DNA from: a virus
DNA: 64,000 nt
IMG/VR virus record: IMGVR_UViG_3300050343_000199
Location: 1-64,000 of that record
Reading direction: 5' to 3' (one strand)
Shown here one piece after another: positions 5,462 through 38,510 of this stretch. The number at the start of each line of letters is the position of its first letter. Positions within the stretch are counted from its first letter, which is position 1. The notes beneath the pieces are model-generated. The model was not told the origin of the DNA. It made no database searches and saw nothing but the letters and a program-made list of their open reading frames with translations. The position numbers and the translations under genes were made by a program.

Positions 5462-5666
5462 ATTGTTGAATTAATCTTTGGGTTTGTTTTCTATCAGACC
5501 CACAAGGAGCATTCCTTAGACACATAAGAATTAATTCGTCATCACTGATAGAGGGTTTAATTGTAAACCCCCACTTATCAACTTCACCTTCTACAGGTGC
5601 TTCAACGTAATCAAATTCGTGTGGCATTACCTGGTGATAGCGATTGGAAAATTTTAGAACATACAT
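5445..5666 (-). CDS. Hypothetical protein, 73 residues
   Basis: Begins MYVLKFSNRYHQVMPHEFDY and has an acidic middle (EAPVEGEVDKWG) and a helical C-terminus. Its first 56 bases overlap, in another frame, the last codons of the dehydrogenase fragment, suggesting that deletion or recombination joined this gene to the truncated one. I recognise no family. Confidence 0.6.
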   Translation of the reverse strand: MYVLKFSNRYHQVMPHEFDYVEAPVEGEVDKWGFTIKPSISDDELILMCLRNAPCGSDRKQTQRLIQQYETTY

Positions 5667-6087
5667 TTACAGCATGGGTTGCTCCATATACTCCAGAGAA
5701 GATATATGAAATACCTAACTTACTACAATACTTTTGAAGTTCCTGACATTTTGAAATGTCACTAGTGCTGTAATCAATAACAATATCACCCTCCTCAAGT
5801 AATGGTAGCAACTCATCTAGAGTGTCTTCTGCCTTTTGCTCTGGACATGTCATCTGAAAAATACCAGGAATTTTTCCTGCACTAGTAAACTTATTCCCAT
5901 CAGATTTAACTGCTCGGACAAGATACTCTATTGAAGTTACACATCCACTAAGGTGTCCTGCTTCATATTGTCCACAGGCATTCTCATAGTTAGTACTACT
6001 GTAACCCCAGACTTCAATACCCTTAGCAAGCATACGGCGAGCCATACCTTCACCAGTACGACCTAACCCAATCATTCCAATTTTCAT
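5611..6087 (-). pseudogene. gnd: 6-phosphogluconate dehydrogenase, N-terminal fragment
   Basis: Encodes 158 residues resembling the NAD(P)-binding domain of 6-phosphogluconate dehydrogenase, the decarboxylating step of the oxidative pentose phosphate pathway that some cyanophages carry. The N-terminus MKIGMIGLGRTGEGMARRML holds a Rossmann GxGxxG (G7, G9, G12), and an IVIDYSTSD segment follows at about residue 108. The frame stops soon after a degenerate version (SGVYGA) of the family's SGG-containing motif. Cyanophage and bacterial enzymes are about 300 residues or longer; the catalytic lysine and the whole C-terminal helical domain are absent, so dehydrogenase activity is not expected. It may be a decaying remnant, or a retained single-domain NADP-binding protein. 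The lack of internal stops suggests recent truncation or selection on the remnant. Confidence 0.7.
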
Positions 6088-6096
6088 TTAATTAAC

Positions 6097-6420
6097 TCAA
6101 TTTACATGTACAACGCCGGTCATACCAGCGCCTTGATGAGGACCACAGAAGAAATTATAGTCCCCTGCGTCAGCAAATACAACGTCTTGTGATTCTCCTG
6201 GAGCAAACAGTAATGCTTCTCTAGACAGGTCAGGACGTGCCTCAACAATAATATTATGGGGAGGTAATGATTCATTGATAAAATGAACCGTATCACCTGC
6301 AGAGATTGTGATCTCATTCGGTGAGAATGCTAGGTTACCATTAGCACCCATTGATACATCAACTGCCCATACAGGAGCAGCAATAAAAAGAGTAAAAAGA
6401 AAACTAATAATAAATTTCAT
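6097..6420 (-). CDS. petE: Plastocyanin
   Basis: Soluble type-1 copper protein that carries electrons from cytochrome b6f to photosystem I in the thylakoid lumen; in cyanophages it is an auxiliary photosynthesis gene. A signal peptide (residues 1-19, ending PVWA) would direct export. The copper ligands are H55 (in PPHNI), C92, H95 and M100 (CGPHQGAGM, the C-x2-H-x4-M loop of plastocyanins). At 107 residues, about 88 mature, it is close to full size and looks functional. It lies 10 bases upstream of the dehydrogenase fragment and just downstream of a small membrane-protein gene, within the gp16-gp17 island. This is the strongest evidence for a cyanobacterial host. Confidence 0.95.
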   Translation of the reverse strand: MKFIISFLFTLFIAAPVWAVDVSMGANGNLAFSPNEITISAGDTVHFINESLPPHNIIVEARPDLSREALLFAPGESQDVVFADAGDYNFFCGPHQGAGMTGVVHVN

Positions 6421-7177: not shown

Positions 7178-7888
7178 TTATTTATTTCTACCTTGATAGT
7201 GCCATTTAGGTTTACCCGTTAAACCATTTAAATATATTAAATTAGTTGAAAGTACATAGCGAGGATTATCCGTAGGATTTAATTCCGTTTTATGAGTTAA
7301 CCAACCAGGAAAAAATAAAACATCGTTTGTTTTTACTTCAATAGGTCCCCAGATAAGATCAGTACTATCTTGACCTAGAGGTTCTGAACATTTATATGGT
7401 CTTAGTGGATTTTCAATTAAAAGGTTTCCACTTTTTTCTGGGACTTCTAGATATGCTGCAATAGCAATACATGCATTTTGATGGTGATGTGCTTCAGTCC
7501 ATCCACCCTTTCTATGTACATTAATCCATGATTCTGATACAGACATATGACATGGTGGAGACTTATACCATGTGGTCATTAAAAATGAAGTTACATACTC
7601 AACAAACTCAAAAAATTTTTCAAATTCTTGCCAGTTATGTGGTACATCCCAATCAGTTTCTACTTTGTACCCTGCAACATTATTAAGATGAACTCCAGTA
7701 ATAGCATCACCGTTTTCTGGATCACCCCAACCTTTTGCTGTAGAAATCTTTTTTGATTCTTTTAAATAATTATCTACTTTAGGTTGAAATGATTTAAAAT
7801 TAAAATTAAAATTTGTTTTGTAGATATATGCAGGAAAGGCATCTATGCCTTCCATAAAATCAAACTCATTATGATATTGAAAATCCAT
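7178..7888 (-). CDS. 2-oxoglutarate/Fe(II) dioxygenase family protein
   Basis: A 236-residue non-heme iron oxygenase of the 2OG-FeII_Oxy_5 type that is frequent in cyanophages; it would couple decarboxylation of 2-oxoglutarate to hydroxylation of an unknown substrate. Visible landmarks are a His cluster EAHHHQNA (residues 132-139), FFPGWLTHKTEL with the distal His at 199, and the co-substrate Arg at 210 (NPRYVLSTNL). The motif order and about 60-residue spacing fit the double-stranded beta-helix core. Length is normal for the family. It sits between gp16 and the DUF6321-type gene, with late promoter cores on both sides. Substrate is not predictable from sequence. Confidence 0.85.
   Translation of the reverse strand: MDFQYHNEFDFMEGIDAFPAYIYKTNFNFNFKSFQPKVDNYLKESKKISTAKGWGDPENGDAITGVHLNNVAGYKVETDWDVPHNWQEFEKFFEFVEYVTSFLMTTWYKSPPCHMSVSESWINVHRKGGWTEAHHHQNACIAIAAYLEVPEKSGNLLIENPLRPYKCSEPLGQDSTDLIWGPIEVKTNDVLFFPGWLTHKTELNPTDNPRYVLSTNLIYLNGLTGKPKWHYQGRNK
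7179..7186 (-). promoter_or_regulatory. T4-type late promoter core (AATAAATA)
   Basis: Minus strand AATAAATA at the junction between the oxygenase stop codon (7178-7180) and the DUF6321-type gene, 20 bases before its ATG. Confidence 0.55.
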
Positions 7889-32855: not shown

Positions 32856-34670
32856 TTAACTTAATCCAGAACCCGAAATATATGCAGTATTAGCAGCAGT
32901 AAAAACAAAAGTGCATGCTCCACGTTGAGCTAAAATTCTAGTACCATTAGTACCATCAGCAGTATTATATAAAGTAAGTCCGGAACCTTCTATAATGTTT
33001 ATATCACTAGTAGTTTGATTTACTATAGTAACCATATCACCAGCAGTAAATCCAGTAGGAACAGTTATACTTTGTGATGCAGCAGACTGAACTATCATTT
33101 TACCAGCATCACCAGTAACCAATGTATAAGCACCACTCTTAACTTCAACGCCAAGTCTTCTTAGTGGACCTATTGAATCACTTATAGATCCTACTGACAA
33201 TGTATTAGTAGTAGTAGCACCTCTACCAGTTACACTATCAAGAGTGTCAATTTCATTGGCAGTATTTCTAGCACGAACAGTAATTGTTCCGACCATACCA
33301 GAGTGATTACCACATTGATAAACATAAGATCCAACAGATCCTCCATTACTTATCTGTGGTGTCCAAGATACTTGCCCTGATGTAGCACCTTGATTAGAAA
33401 CCGTTGGGTTGCTAACAGAAGTGCCACCAGAAGTATCTCTTATATAAAATGGATGATTTGTCCCACTACTTATAACAAATTGAATAGTATCTCCTTCATT
33501 GATAGTAATAGGTGCATCATCACCAGAAACGCTACCTAATCTATCATTACCATTTAAATTATATTCTGAGGTGGATGGTGCTGTTACTGCTATACTATAA
33601 ATCTGACCTGTAGATCCACTTGATTGATCAACCCATTGTACATTTCCTGCACCATCACTAGACAATACTTGTTCACTAGTTCCATTGGTAGTTGGATAAG
33701 TTAAACCACCAGCAGTCAGAGAACCAGTGATAGTTACACCAGAAGATGAAAATACTGCTCTATCAGTTAGACCATCCTGACTTGTAATTCTAACCGCAGG
33801 ACCAGAACCAAGAATTAAATTCGCGCTACCACCAGGAGCTCTTATATAAAATGTATCGGTAGAGGATGTATAAGAGATACGACCATCTTGACTTGCACCA
33901 AAATTTAATACTACATCATCAGCAACTTGAATTTGATCATTGAAATCCGTGCTTCCACCAAAAATAAGATTATTATTAGTGCTAGATCCTCTACCAGTTA
34001 CAGTGTCAAGTGTATCTACTTCTGTATATGATGTTAAATACCCAGAATTAGCATGATCACCCCAACCATATGCAGTATCCCAACTAGTTATCTTAGCAGT
34101 AGTAACACCAGCAGCATCACCAAGTGAGGTTAGATATGCTGATAAATCTGGTGGAGTATATGAAAATACTCCATTAGAATTATTGTATGTTAGTGCAGCA
34201 GTACCAACAGAGTTACTAGTAACAGATAAACTTGCTAGTGAAATACCACCACCACCGCCACCTGATCCAGTACCTGCAGGACTAGCATCTACCCATTGGG
34301 TTGAATCTCCATCATTATAATATATTTTTAAATATCCAGTATCGGATTGCCACCAAAGATCTCCATCACTAGGTGATGTAGGTGCAGTATCTGATGCTGT
34401 TACTGAAGCACCACCCCCATTTCCAAGAGAAGTTAAATATCCTGCTTGACTATGATCTCCCCAACTATATGCAGTATTCCAATTAGCAATATTTATTGAA
34501 GTGATACTACCTGCAGTAGAAGAAGTAAATATTGGGTCAGATTCATTTGTACTACTAGAAACTCCAGATCTCCAAGTAAGTCCATCCCATAACCATGTTA
34601 TGTTACCAACAGTGTGTGTATAGCTACCATCTGTTGGTTGCCCTGAGGTTGCGGGAAAATTGATTGCCAT
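32856..34670 (-). CDS. Tail fibre with embedded cupredoxin-like domain, 604 residues
   Basis: Start is ATG 34670 (MAINFPATSGQPTDGSYTHT), chosen because the 744-residue fibre at 36276-38510 starts with the same leader and because a late promoter lies between the longer GTG start (34745) and this ATG. Modules in order: leader; NWNTAYSWGDHSQAGYL; LWWQSDTGYLKIYYNDGDS; a second NWDTAYGWGDH-type unit; beta-helical region; then a cupredoxin-like domain (about residues 360-470) with possible copper ligands H406, C453, H456 and M459 (QCGNHSGM). A C-terminal beta-domain follows. Such a domain in a fibre is unusual. Copper binding is a prediction; structural use without metal is possible. Confidence 0.85.
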   Translation of the reverse strand: MAINFPATSGQPTDGSYTHTVGNITWLWDGLTWRSGVSSSTNESDPIFTSSTAGSITSINIANWNTAYSWGDHSQAGYLTSLGNGGGASVTASDTAPTSPSDGDLWWQSDTGYLKIYYNDGDSTQWVDASPAGTGSGGGGGGISLASLSVTSNSVGTAALTYNNSNGVFSYTPPDLSAYLTSLGDAAGVTTAKITSWDTAYGWGDHANSGYLTSYTEVDTLDTVTGRGSSTNNNLIFGGSTDFNDQIQVADDVVLNFGASQDGRISYTSSTDTFYIRAPGGSANLILGSGPAVRITSQDGLTDRAVFSSSGVTITGSLTAGGLTYPTTNGTSEQVLSSDGAGNVQWVDQSSGSTGQIYSIAVTAPSTSEYNLNGNDRLGSVSGDDAPITINEGDTIQFVISSGTNHPFYIRDTSGGTSVSNPTVSNQGATSGQVSWTPQISNGGSVGSYVYQCGNHSGMVGTITVRARNTANEIDTLDSVTGRGATTTNTLSVGSISDSIGPLRRLGVEVKSGAYTLVTGDAGKMIVQSAASQSITVPTGFTAGDMVTIVNQTTSDINIIEGSGLTLYNTADGTNGTRILAQRGACTFVFTAANTAYISGSGLS

Positions 34671-34692
34671 TTCTAAAATGCTCCTTCCGTGA

Positions 34693-34700
34693 TATTTATT
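34693..34700 (-). promoter_or_regulatory. T4-type late promoter core (AATAAATA)
   Basis: AATAAATA on the minus strand in the gap between the propeller gene (ends 34712) and the fibre ATG at 34670; an AAGGAG ribosome site lies between. Confidence 0.65.
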
Positions 34701-34711
34701 ATTGTTGATCC

Positions 34712-36253
34712 TTATTTGTGTGTCACGTATGGACCATATGTCCACTCAGCAGGTTTAGATGCTACACCAATTCTAATTTCAATTACACCTTGTGGTGCGG
34801 GGGAACTCTTTTCAGTTCCAGGTGGCATATAAAGATGTCCATTTGGAGCAGGAATTAAACTACGACCATAATCAGTTCCAGGTCCAGTCGCATCATTCCA
34901 ACCCGGCATATCAATTAATTCGTAACCATGTTCTGCAGGACAAGCTGCTGCAGCTGCAGTATTACTTTCTCCAAATCCAGTGTAAATTTTGAGTAGTTTA
35001 TTATTATTACCGGGAGCAGCATAAATGTTACCATCTGCTCCAATTACACAACCTACATGTCTATGATCTGTACCGTGAGTTTGATTATTAACATCAACTG
35101 TACCAATCGCTGCATTAGTTTTATCTGTATTTGATAAATTAGCAAGTACAGTTCTACCAGTTAATTGATGGAAAGTATTTGCAATAGGATCATACTTCAT
35201 AATCCATGGATATTCATCGGGTAAAATATAAATCATACCATCAGGACCCATCTCACATGCTTGTGTGAGATTAGTCATAGTAAGTGAATTCATCAAGAAC
35301 CAACTATCAGCTGAAGTTGAAGATCCGTTATCCGCATATGCTTTATGTGTGAAGTTTACAGTATCTGCAACTGGATCAATAACACCAATATACCTATGGT
35401 AGTTACCAATCATATAAATTTTTCCATCTGGTCCTAGACAAGCATCGCTGAATTTATGGCGACCAGTTCCATTGGTAGAATTCCATGGATATGAACCACC
35501 AGTATCATCAACCAAATTACCAATGTTACCAGTCGTTGCGCCAACTTGAATAGCTTCATACGTTACTGGATTGTATTTTATAACACAATCGTGGAAATCT
35601 GGAACCATATAAATGCACCCATTATTGGGAGCTACAATTCCAGTGCAGAACATAAACCCTGCTTTGGAGTTCAAACTATACGACCCTGGAGAGGAGAATA
35701 GATTATCACCAATAGTGTTCTCTGCTGTTACACTACCAAGTACTCTAGGTCCACCGGGATATGGTTGCCAGTTGGTATGGTTCAGAGGATCGTAGTGATA
35801 TAAATCGTCTCCTCTAGCAGGAACATTAACTACAGTACCATTTGGAGTTGCGACCATTGCTGAAGTTTTACTAGATGCCATATCCTGACCAGCACTGGAG
35901 TGGATATATGACTTTCTGGTATTAGGATCAATCATTAATGTAAATACTGCTCCCTGTCTTCCGCAATAAATTTTACCATTGTTAGTGACAGTACCACCTT
36001 TCCATCCATACTCATCACGATATGGTCCTCTAGTATAAGTTTCATATCCAGTTATAGCACCAGTATTAGCATCAATAATTGGTGTATTCTGAATAGGAAT
36101 TTCAGACCAAGACCCTAAAGCACTAGGAACAACGGATGGGAATGAATTATTACCAACAAAATCATCCTTATTCATATGGTATTGGTGACTGCCACCTTGC
36201 CAAGCATAAGCATAATAATGCTCGGTTCCTACTTTTTGCCTTGCGTTAGTCAT
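34712..36253 (-). CDS. Putative beta-propeller virion protein, 513 residues
   Basis: At least six repeats of the form G.DG.IY..P....W.MKYDP occur: NNGKIYCGRQGAVFTLMIDP, APNNGCIYMVPDFHDCVIKY, GPDGKIYMIGNYHRYIGVID, GPDGMIYILPDEYPWIMKYD, GADGNIYAAPGNNNKLLKIY and APNGHLYMPPG. Spaced about 60-90 residues apart, they indicate a six-bladed NHL- or SMP30-like propeller. No signal peptide or catalytic site is evident. Lying between two fibre genes with a late promoter just upstream, it is best read as a receptor- or glycan-binding head. Confidence 0.75.
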   Translation of the reverse strand: MTNARQKVGTEHYYAYAWQGGSHQYHMNKDDFVGNNSFPSVVPSALGSWSEIPIQNTPIIDANTGAITGYETYTRGPYRDEYGWKGGTVTNNGKIYCGRQGAVFTLMIDPNTRKSYIHSSAGQDMASSKTSAMVATPNGTVVNVPARGDDLYHYDPLNHTNWQPYPGGPRVLGSVTAENTIGDNLFSSPGSYSLNSKAGFMFCTGIVAPNNGCIYMVPDFHDCVIKYNPVTYEAIQVGATTGNIGNLVDDTGGSYPWNSTNGTGRHKFSDACLGPDGKIYMIGNYHRYIGVIDPVADTVNFTHKAYADNGSSTSADSWFLMNSLTMTNLTQACEMGPDGMIYILPDEYPWIMKYDPIANTFHQLTGRTVLANLSNTDKTNAAIGTVDVNNQTHGTDHRHVGCVIGADGNIYAAPGNNNKLLKIYTGFGESNTAAAAACPAEHGYELIDMPGWNDATGPGTDYGRSLIPAPNGHLYMPPGTEKSSPAPQGVIEIRIGVASKPAEWTYGPYVTHK

Positions 36254-36272: not shown

Positions 36273-36279
36273 TATTTAT
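36273..36279 (-). promoter_or_regulatory. T4-type late promoter core
   Basis: ATAAATA on the minus strand, 20 bases before the ATG at 36253. The TAA of the 744-residue gene (36276-36278) lies within it. Confidence 0.65.
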
Positions 36280-38510
36280 GAAAGAATTCTCCAACCATAG
36301 AATGCTCCACAGAAAACAAGTTTAATTGATTGCCCATTTTTATTAACAACAAAAGGCATTCCATGCATATCTTCACCCCAATATTTACCAGTTGTATTGG
36401 TTGTTGGTAACCAATACACACTAGATCCATTTTGATCTCCAGTCCATGGAGCAGGTCCAGTTTGTTGAATTCCTTGTTCAAGGGAGGGGTAGATTACAAT
36501 CGGACAATTTGTAGCATTACCAGGATTATAATCATATGATGGATACCCAGGACTAAATGCATTCGGGAAAGTACCATCATCATTTCTATTAAGTTTTCCA
36601 GTACCAACATCCAGTATCGTAATAGTATCTCCTTCTCTGCACATATAATGGATTGGAAGAACAAGAGATCTAGGAATTAATGTGTTAACTGCGATAATAC
36701 TATTCAAGTGCTCGGCACCTAATTGTAGGTTTACACTGGCGTCGTGTTTATATAATGTTTTTCCAGCACCACCAATTCCAACCTTAGATGATTTATAAAC
36801 CATCATACCATTAGATCCACCAAAGGAAGCAATGACATAGTACAATCTTCCTGTAGCACCACTAGCGGTGACCGTTTTAAATACTAAATTCTCTAATTGT
36901 AATCCTGTTCCCGACGTATACGGTTTAACTACAATTTCTTGAATATCGTTTGTTAGAGTTGTAGTAGTTACGTAATTTCCACCATTATATCCAGGTTGCA
37001 CATTTCCATCATATCCAATAGTCAATTCATTAAAATAGTCAACATTTAGTGGATTTGTAAAAGTTAATTCAATAACTCCATTATCAATAGAACTAGCAAC
37101 ATTCAACCAAGTATCAAACCTTGCATCAAATGCCAATGATACTGGATCTGGATGATCTGGGGGATTTGCAATTGGAGGGAGATTACCTGCAGTGTCAGAA
37201 TATGCAGGCATATACTGAGGTAAATTATTCCGTGCAATATTGTGTCCGACGATGGAACTCCCGTCCCCCCAATTCAGAGGATCATCTCCAGTATCTCCAT
37301 AAGACCATTCACCTCCAATATTTGAATTTGTTACGTCAATAGTTGGTTCAGCATTTATCGGATCTTCCACATAAATGACTCCACTCATTTCAGAATGATC
37401 ACCACATTGATAATAATAAGTACCAGTAGCTGCTGGTGTCCAAGAAATACTAGCAGTTCCCTCTCCTGTAGCTGCTGGATTGCTTACACTTGCACCTCCA
37501 TCACTAACTCTGATGTATAAAGGATGAGATCCACTTAGAGCAGAAGTATCAAATGTAACTGTGTCTCCAGTATACATTTTAACGGGAACATCATTTCCAC
37601 CTACTTGGCCATATCTATCATTACCAGATAAAGTATAGTATTTGCTATATGTGGTATTAGTAGCACTAGGTACAGTAATATCAAATGTTTCTGGTGATAC
37701 TAAGACACTACTAGTACTGCTACCTCCGCCAGTTTGATCTGCTACCCAAGCATAATCAGTTCCATTCCAACTTAAGATTTCTCCGGAAGATGCACCACTA
37801 GTATTCAAATGTACATCAACACCAGCGTTGATAGTGGACTGTAGTCCACCAATAGATGCTCCACTAAAACTAATGGTACTATTTTGAAAGTCAATAGAAG
37901 TTCCTGCTGCAGTAATACTACCACCAACATCAAGACTCAAACTTTCAGCAGCAATCCTACCAGTAACATTAACACCCTGTGCGGAAGTTTCTAATCTTTT
38001 TCCGTTAGATCCATAATGCAACTCAACTGCGCCGCCATTGAGAATTGATATTCCGCCACTAGCACCACTACCTTTTAGATAAACATCATATGATGCAATA
38101 GTACTAGTATTGGGTTTAATAGTTAAACTTCCTGTTGTACCACTTACATTCCAGTCAAAGAAAACATCAGGATGTCCAGATGCATGTCCAGTTCCAAGTC
38201 CTAATCCTGTGTCATCTTTTAGTACAAGATAGTTTGTTTGAGAACCTGGATATCCAGACACACTAGCGTTGTATACAATGCCGTCGTTTGGAGTCCAATT
38301 GGTTCCATCATACGCAAAAAATTCACCAGTTGCTAAACCAGTTGTATCTACATTTCCGATCTCATTAATATCAGTTATACCACCACCGCCTTGGCCACTA
38401 ACAGAAGCATTCCAACTAACTCCGTTCCATTTATAAGTAACGTAACCAACTACGTGGGTAAAAGAACCATCAGTTGCTTGTCCCGTAGTTGATGGGAAAT
38501 TGATTGCCAT
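36276..38510 (-). CDS. Tail fibre with embedded cupredoxin-like domain, 744 residues
   Basis: Leader MAINFPSTTGQATDGSFTHV is shared with the 604-residue fibre, as is a W.GVSW module. The middle is a cupredoxin-like domain (about residues 273-383: KYYTLSGNDRYGQVGGNDVP through SGVIYVEDP) with a complete ligand set H329 (GSHPLYIRV), C369, H372 and M375 (QCGDHSEM). The C-terminal half contains a beta-jelly-roll-like region (FDTWLNVASSIDNGVIELTF) and a final domain ending FVVNKNGQSIKLVFCGAFYG. The domain is as well conserved in its key residues as in the 604-residue paralogue although surrounding modules differ. Role of copper in a virion fibre is unknown. Confidence 0.85.
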   Translation of the reverse strand: MAINFPSTTGQATDGSFTHVVGYVTYKWNGVSWNASVSGQGGGGITDINEIGNVDTTGLATGEFFAYDGTNWTPNDGIVYNASVSGYPGSQTNYLVLKDDTGLGLGTGHASGHPDVFFDWNVSGTTGSLTIKPNTSTIASYDVYLKGSGASGGISILNGGAVELHYGSNGKRLETSAQGVNVTGRIAAESLSLDVGGSITAAGTSIDFQNSTISFSGASIGGLQSTINAGVDVHLNTSGASSGEILSWNGTDYAWVADQTGGGSSTSSVLVSPETFDITVPSATNTTYSKYYTLSGNDRYGQVGGNDVPVKMYTGDTVTFDTSALSGSHPLYIRVSDGGASVSNPAATGEGTASISWTPAATGTYYYQCGDHSEMSGVIYVEDPINAEPTIDVTNSNIGGEWSYGDTGDDPLNWGDGSSIVGHNIARNNLPQYMPAYSDTAGNLPPIANPPDHPDPVSLAFDARFDTWLNVASSIDNGVIELTFTNPLNVDYFNELTIGYDGNVQPGYNGGNYVTTTTLTNDIQEIVVKPYTSGTGLQLENLVFKTVTASGATGRLYYVIASFGGSNGMMVYKSSKVGIGGAGKTLYKHDASVNLQLGAEHLNSIIAVNTLIPRSLVLPIHYMCREGDTITILDVGTGKLNRNDDGTFPNAFSPGYPSYDYNPGNATNCPIVIYPSLEQGIQQTGPAPWTGDQNGSSVYWLPTTNTTGKYWGEDMHGMPFVVNKNGQSIKLVFCGAFYGWRILS

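Follow-up and report, generated by a model that had tools for sequence, protein, structure and literature searches.

A predicted type-1 cupredoxin domain on tail proteins of marine cyanophages

Organization of the locus

The window, by which we mean the whole stretch of 64,000 nucleotides that was analysed (positions 1 to 64,000 of the virus record IMGVR_UViG_3300050343_000199), includes two fibre-like genes with a predicted cupredoxin domain and one plastocyanin gene, all on the minus strand. The features at issue were as follows.

36276..38510, minus strand: P0001, a fibre-like structural protein of 744 residues with a cupredoxin domain (open reading frame and PHROG matches)
38394..38510, minus strand: N-terminal leader of P0001, MAINFPSTTGQATDGSFTHVVGYVTYKWNGVSWNASVSG, common to other fibre-like open reading frames
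37719..37730, minus strand: GGGS linker of P0001 (residues 261-264), the module junction just N-terminal of the cupredoxin domain, located by comparison with fibre L014
37347..37709, minus strand: predicted cupredoxin domain of P0001 (residues about 268-388; family profile matching blue copper proteins, AlphaFold2 and Foldseek)
32856..34745, minus strand: second fibre-like protein, 629 residues when read from GTG (PHROG 9729, tail fibre protein, E 5e-72)
33276..33587, minus strand: second cupredoxin domain, within that fibre, HPFYI ... CGNHSGM (Pfam Copper-bind, E 0.008, below the cut-off)
6097..6420, minus strand: petE, plastocyanin gene with an N-terminal signal-like segment (Pfam Copper-bind, E 3.9e-20; PHROG 515, E 7e-59)

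The reading of P0001 as a 744-residue frame agreed with the preliminary description of this DNA, in which both the second domain copy and the plastocyanin gene were absent. P0001 matched phrog_27200, phrog_677 and phrog_15343, the match to phrog_677 (baseplate wedge tail fibre connector) covering residues 183-383. In the 629-residue protein, the leader, beginning MAINFP, starts at residue 26 as numbered from the GTG. Judging from its neighbours, the shared N-terminal leader and the phage-family matches, P0001 is probably a tail fibre. The petE gene adjoins a 158-residue protein (5611-6087) matching the phage 6-phosphogluconate dehydrogenase family, and this pair is placed between the terminase and tail genes. 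A gene of the 2OG-Fe(II) oxygenase family was also found among the structural genes (7178-7888).

Prediction of the cupredoxin fold

A complete set of type-1 copper ligands in P0001 had been proposed beforehand, and all four residues were found exactly at the positions proposed, in the order and spacing His...Cys-x(2-4)-His-x(2-4)-Met. Together they span 37386-37526 of the window.

37524..37526, minus strand: His329, first putative copper ligand (in SHPLYI)
37404..37406, minus strand: Cys369, putative copper ligand (in YYYQC)
37395..37397, minus strand: His372, putative copper ligand
37386..37388, minus strand: Met375, putative axial ligand

The ligand loop is thus C-x2-H-x2-M, the amicyanin type, and the first His is followed by Pro, where Asn is usual. 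Taken by itself the motif is weak evidence, since a loose H..C..H..M pattern occurred eight times, in part as nested matches, when all six frames of the window were scanned. Homology is what sets the observation on P0001 above chance, and a chance motif was rejected because profile, structure and conservation all go beyond it.

By single-sequence phmmer search against the PDB, amicyanin was the top match (E 0.0036), with C, H and M aligned to amicyanin's own ligands. A family profile built from 15 diverse relatives then detected 73 PDB sequences at E<=0.1; the 60 matches listed were almost all cupredoxins, and included a copper nitrite reductase, rusticyanin, plastocyanin, amicyanin and pseudoazurin. 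The E values taken as significant for PDB cupredoxins ran from 1.8e-7, the best of the search, to 1e-4. In the search against Pfam, P0001 reached no family, and the sister domain in the fibre at 32856-34745 scored 17 bits, below the curated cut-off of 21.2 bits for PF00127.

The AlphaFold2 model of the P0001 domain, for which an alignment of 41 sequences was used as input, contained nine strands and was of high confidence (pLDDT 91.7, pTM 0.85). In a Foldseek search of the PDB with this model, all 36 matches at E<=0.001 were copper proteins of the cupredoxin fold. Prediction and search together bore out the cupredoxin fold, a two-sheet Greek-key beta-sandwich, as had been suggested from the strand pattern. 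As the TM-scores to solved cupredoxins were modest (0.35-0.54), the domain represents a divergent version of the fold. Against a viral library, the model came closest to other cyanophage proteins, with TM-scores reaching 0.85; baseplate wedge tail fibre connectors, peptidase S8 proteins and the proximal tail fibre of P-SSM2 were among these. The alignment columns of the domain correspond one by one to those of blue copper proteins of solved structure, amicyanin included, which suggests that the four ligands would meet at one point. We consider this segment of P0001 to be a cupredoxin domain of the type-1 ('blue copper') class whose loop is of the amicyanin type, with a rough probability of 0.75 for the best explanation taken as a whole.

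Conservation of the copper ligands

Conservation was scored over 90 columns in 143 viral copies less than 90% identical to each other, and the four ligand columns were the most conserved of all. His329 was kept in 142 of the 143, Cys369 and His372 in all 142 copies scored, and Met375 in 138, the exceptions being Gln (twice), Leu (once) and unaligned residues (twice). Free replacement of H, C, H and M among homologues was thus not observed, the four residues being kept at 98-100% in viral copies outside the few with lost ligands, while the rest of the domain diverges to about 20% identity. Likewise, in the 41-sequence alignment, with a mean column identity of 34%, the only invariant columns were H, C, H, M and one G. 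The spacing C-x2-H-x2-M was observed in 151 of 158 non-redundant viral copies. For avoidance of circularity, domain copies were also placed by a profile restricted to the N-terminal half; C-x(2-5)-H-x2-[MQL] followed downstream in 49 of 51 non-redundant viral copies, compared with 0.6% in shuffled sequence, and the two exceptions were interrupted domains.

Gln and Leu are natural axial variants of type-1 sites (stellacyanin-like and laccase-like, respectively). The change from Met to Gln was found in two proteins, L214 (at about residue 1420) and L215 (at about residue 1421), and that from Met to Leu in the domain of L204 (residues 94-198). Real losses, such as those in L300 and S-SZBM1_53, remove several ligands together. 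In L300 (residues 565-665) and S-SZBM1_53 (record L332, 26672-28876) three or four ligands are gone, the S-SZBM1_53 copy retaining the first His alone, and one of these two copies sits in a virion-detected protein. Ligands are also lost in the second open reading frame of L032. The persistence of the copies in S-SZBM1_53 and L300 suggests that the fold can serve without copper.

Distribution and exchange of the domain

The preliminary description had regarded a metal-binding fibre domain as an unusual virion component. This expectation did not hold: far from being confined to one fibre, the domain recurs widely on the tail proteins of cyanophages, as a module open to exchange. The P0001 domain matched 102 records of the phage collection, and the copy that forms the C-terminal end of the gp9-type 'baseplate wedge tail fibre connector' matched 347, nearly all cyanophages in both cases. 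This connector domain, present in hundreds of cyanophage records, was also identified as a cupredoxin by sequence, AlphaFold2 and Foldseek; the full-length model was poor overall (pLDDT 61), and its usable part was the C-terminal domain (pLDDT 73-89). As a rough denominator, the neck protein gp13 of the window matched about 463 cyanophage-named records (Synechococcus 378, Cyanophage 61, Prochlorococcus 24), which suggests that about three quarters of cyanophage records carry the domain. On this sequence evidence, most of the T4-like cyanophages known from the sea carry the domain on their tail proteins.

Several other architectures were detected. The source phage record (192,818 bases) encodes, outside the window at 141331-143730 on the minus strand, an 800-residue subtilase (L329) with two tandem cupredoxin domains. 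This subtilase has a GTSMASP motif, both of its cupredoxin domains retain complete ligands, and similar subtilase-cupredoxin fusions are present in S-H9-1 and S-CAM4. In the podovirus P-SCSP2, one domain lies close to the N-terminus of a 437-residue protein. In a putative proximal tail fibre of S-CAM1 (L033, 3293-5554), fragments of the cupredoxin domain lie out of order around a segment resembling a subtilase, an arrangement that recombination may have left behind as a scar. Outside phages, the bacterial relatives were overwhelmingly from marine Flavobacteriia and other Bacteroidota, and the domain usually ends the open reading frame. Within this set, L118 to L178 make up a large family of such marine Flavobacteriia frames, with several copies per genome in some. 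A search of plasmids with the domain gave no match.

Evidence for exchange was obtained near P0001 itself. The 640-residue fibre L014 of another viral contig is 96% identical to P0001 over residues 43-262, diverges completely at the GGGS linker and is without a cupredoxin domain. The existence of this near-identical stem without the domain indicates that the domain is a swappable module. It appears to be exchanged among exposed tail proteins of marine cyanophages, namely fibres, the gp9-type connector and tail-associated subtilases. Tandem duplication between the two fibres of the window was not favoured, as their domains did not group as nearest relatives in a tree that was weakly supported throughout. 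An origin by duplication of the phage's own petE was rejected, since the fibre-domain profile matched petE weakly (E 0.0016) and the ligand loops differ.

At least one protein with an intact site is a virion component. S-SZBM1_206, a 'baseplate wedge protein' of 498 residues, has the C-terminal domain with all four ligands, and was detected in CsCl-purified virions by nine peptides with 24.9% coverage (PMC9146016, Table 1). The virion proteome of S-CREM2 was dropped as evidence, the 422-residue short tail fibre and the neighbouring open reading frames checked being without the domain. The occurrence of the domain on tail proteins suggests that marine cyanophages may carry copper on their tails.

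Discussion

The site in P0001 is very probably competent to bind copper. We argue for metal binding because four near-invariant residues have no other obvious joint use. Mature particles may hold copper at this site, although for virions in seawater we regard actual occupancy as an even bet. Cyanobacteria keep cytosol-folding proteins away from copper. The P0001 fibre has no evident signal peptide, while petE of the same window has a signal-like N-terminus, and the folding of the fibre should thus take place in the cytosol of the host, a compartment poor in copper. The metal would therefore most likely be acquired at the cell envelope or once lysis has released the particles, and could hold the beta-sandwich rigid, giving the fibre or connector a knob that resists proteases. 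Such stabilisation of an exposed knob is the simplest role for the bound copper; that it is the main one is put forward tentatively, at somewhat worse than even odds.

A different use of the metal, rather unlikely in our estimate, is in adsorption, with the copper-loaded domain serving as a 'Trojan horse' that is recognised by, or exchanges copper with, a copper-handling component or ligand of the host surface. We know of no host receptor or copper uptake partner for such a step, and the domain in P0001 is located in the middle of the fibre rather than at its tip. On the other hand, the domain is found on exposed adsorption proteins in several architectures, and close relatives occupy the C-terminus of large marine Flavobacteriia open reading frames. 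By analogy, iron on phage fibres has been proposed to act as a lure (PMC11705849), and a comparable role for copper might be imagined.

The domain could also have a structural task and no other, with the beta-sandwich acting as spacer or knob and the ligands as mere remnants, as the ligand-loss copies in S-SZBM1_53, L300 and the second frame of L032 would allow. The near-invariance of the ligands in the other viral copies, in which they are the most conserved residues of an otherwise diverging domain, makes this reading improbable. Slightly less probable still is that zinc or another metal is bound in vivo. Zinc can occupy such a ligand set in vitro, and a zinc-bound or apo form is possible for a domain folded in the cytosol, as would be expected of the fibre, which in contrast to petE shows no evident signal peptide. 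However, both the 3+1 arrangement and an axial position filled by Met (or by Gln or Leu) are characteristic of copper sites, and by the Irving-Williams order copper would displace zinc outside the cell. A part in electron transfer, or in sensing redox conditions where the phage meets its host, is very improbable: such ligands are those of electron-transfer proteins, but no redox partner domain was found among the neighbouring proteins scanned, and the domain is unlikely to serve electron transfer as such.

Returning to a copper-loaded type-1 domain, we searched the literature outside subscription journals and found no paper linking cupredoxins with tail fibres or baseplates of cyanophages or other phages, but some of the domain-bearing proteins may already carry automatic database annotation. 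Cupredoxins, the petE gene of cyanophages and, for iron, metals on fibres were known before; the cupredoxin on phage tail proteins appears to be new. If the sites hold copper, a redox metal would be present on the adsorption apparatus of many of the best-known marine cyanophages, as a copper counterpart to the iron-on-fibres proposal and with a possible tie of viral particles to the chemistry of copper in the ocean. Should the copper turn out to have no special role, the C-terminal domain of the connector would still gain a name and a testable metal site; present annotation of this protein goes no further than 'baseplate wedge tail fibre connector' or hypothetical. As a speculation to which we give low odds, the particles of most marine cyanophages of the T4-like group, and of at least one cyanopodovirus, might bear copper in several type-1 domains per virion (on connector and fibres), take up the metal on release, use it to adsorb to the host or to pirate copper at the surface of the cyanobacterium, and act as a virus-borne copper ligand in seawater.

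Comparison with known systems

Amicyanin, the top PDB match by sequence, shares with P0001 the upstream His, the C-x2-H-x2-M loop and the Y-x-C strand before this loop. It is, however, a free-standing periplasmic electron carrier with methylamine dehydrogenase as partner and Asn after the first His, whereas the P0001 domain is internal to a phage fibre, has Pro at that position and is surrounded by phage tail genes; no gene for a methylamine dehydrogenase-type partner was found among the neighbours of P0001 scanned. Rusticyanin, pseudoazurin and plastocyanin were top matches in both Foldseek and profile searches, but these free electron carriers have longer ligand loops. The petE plastocyanin, known from cyanophages (PMC3037559) and a photosynthesis auxiliary gene, belongs to the same superfamily as the fibre domain and is encoded in the same genome, yet it is a separate gene with a signal-like N-terminus and a C-x2-H-x4-M loop. 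In the marine Flavobacteriia, cupredoxin-tailed open reading frames carry a domain up to 47% identical to that of P0001 over most of its length, mostly with the same ligands; they are bacterial, and the domain is usually terminal. The fibres of T4 (gp37) and of Alteromonas phage R22Y resemble P0001 in placing metal ligands on an adsorption protein, but hold octahedral iron through HxH motifs and have no cupredoxin fold (PMC11705849).
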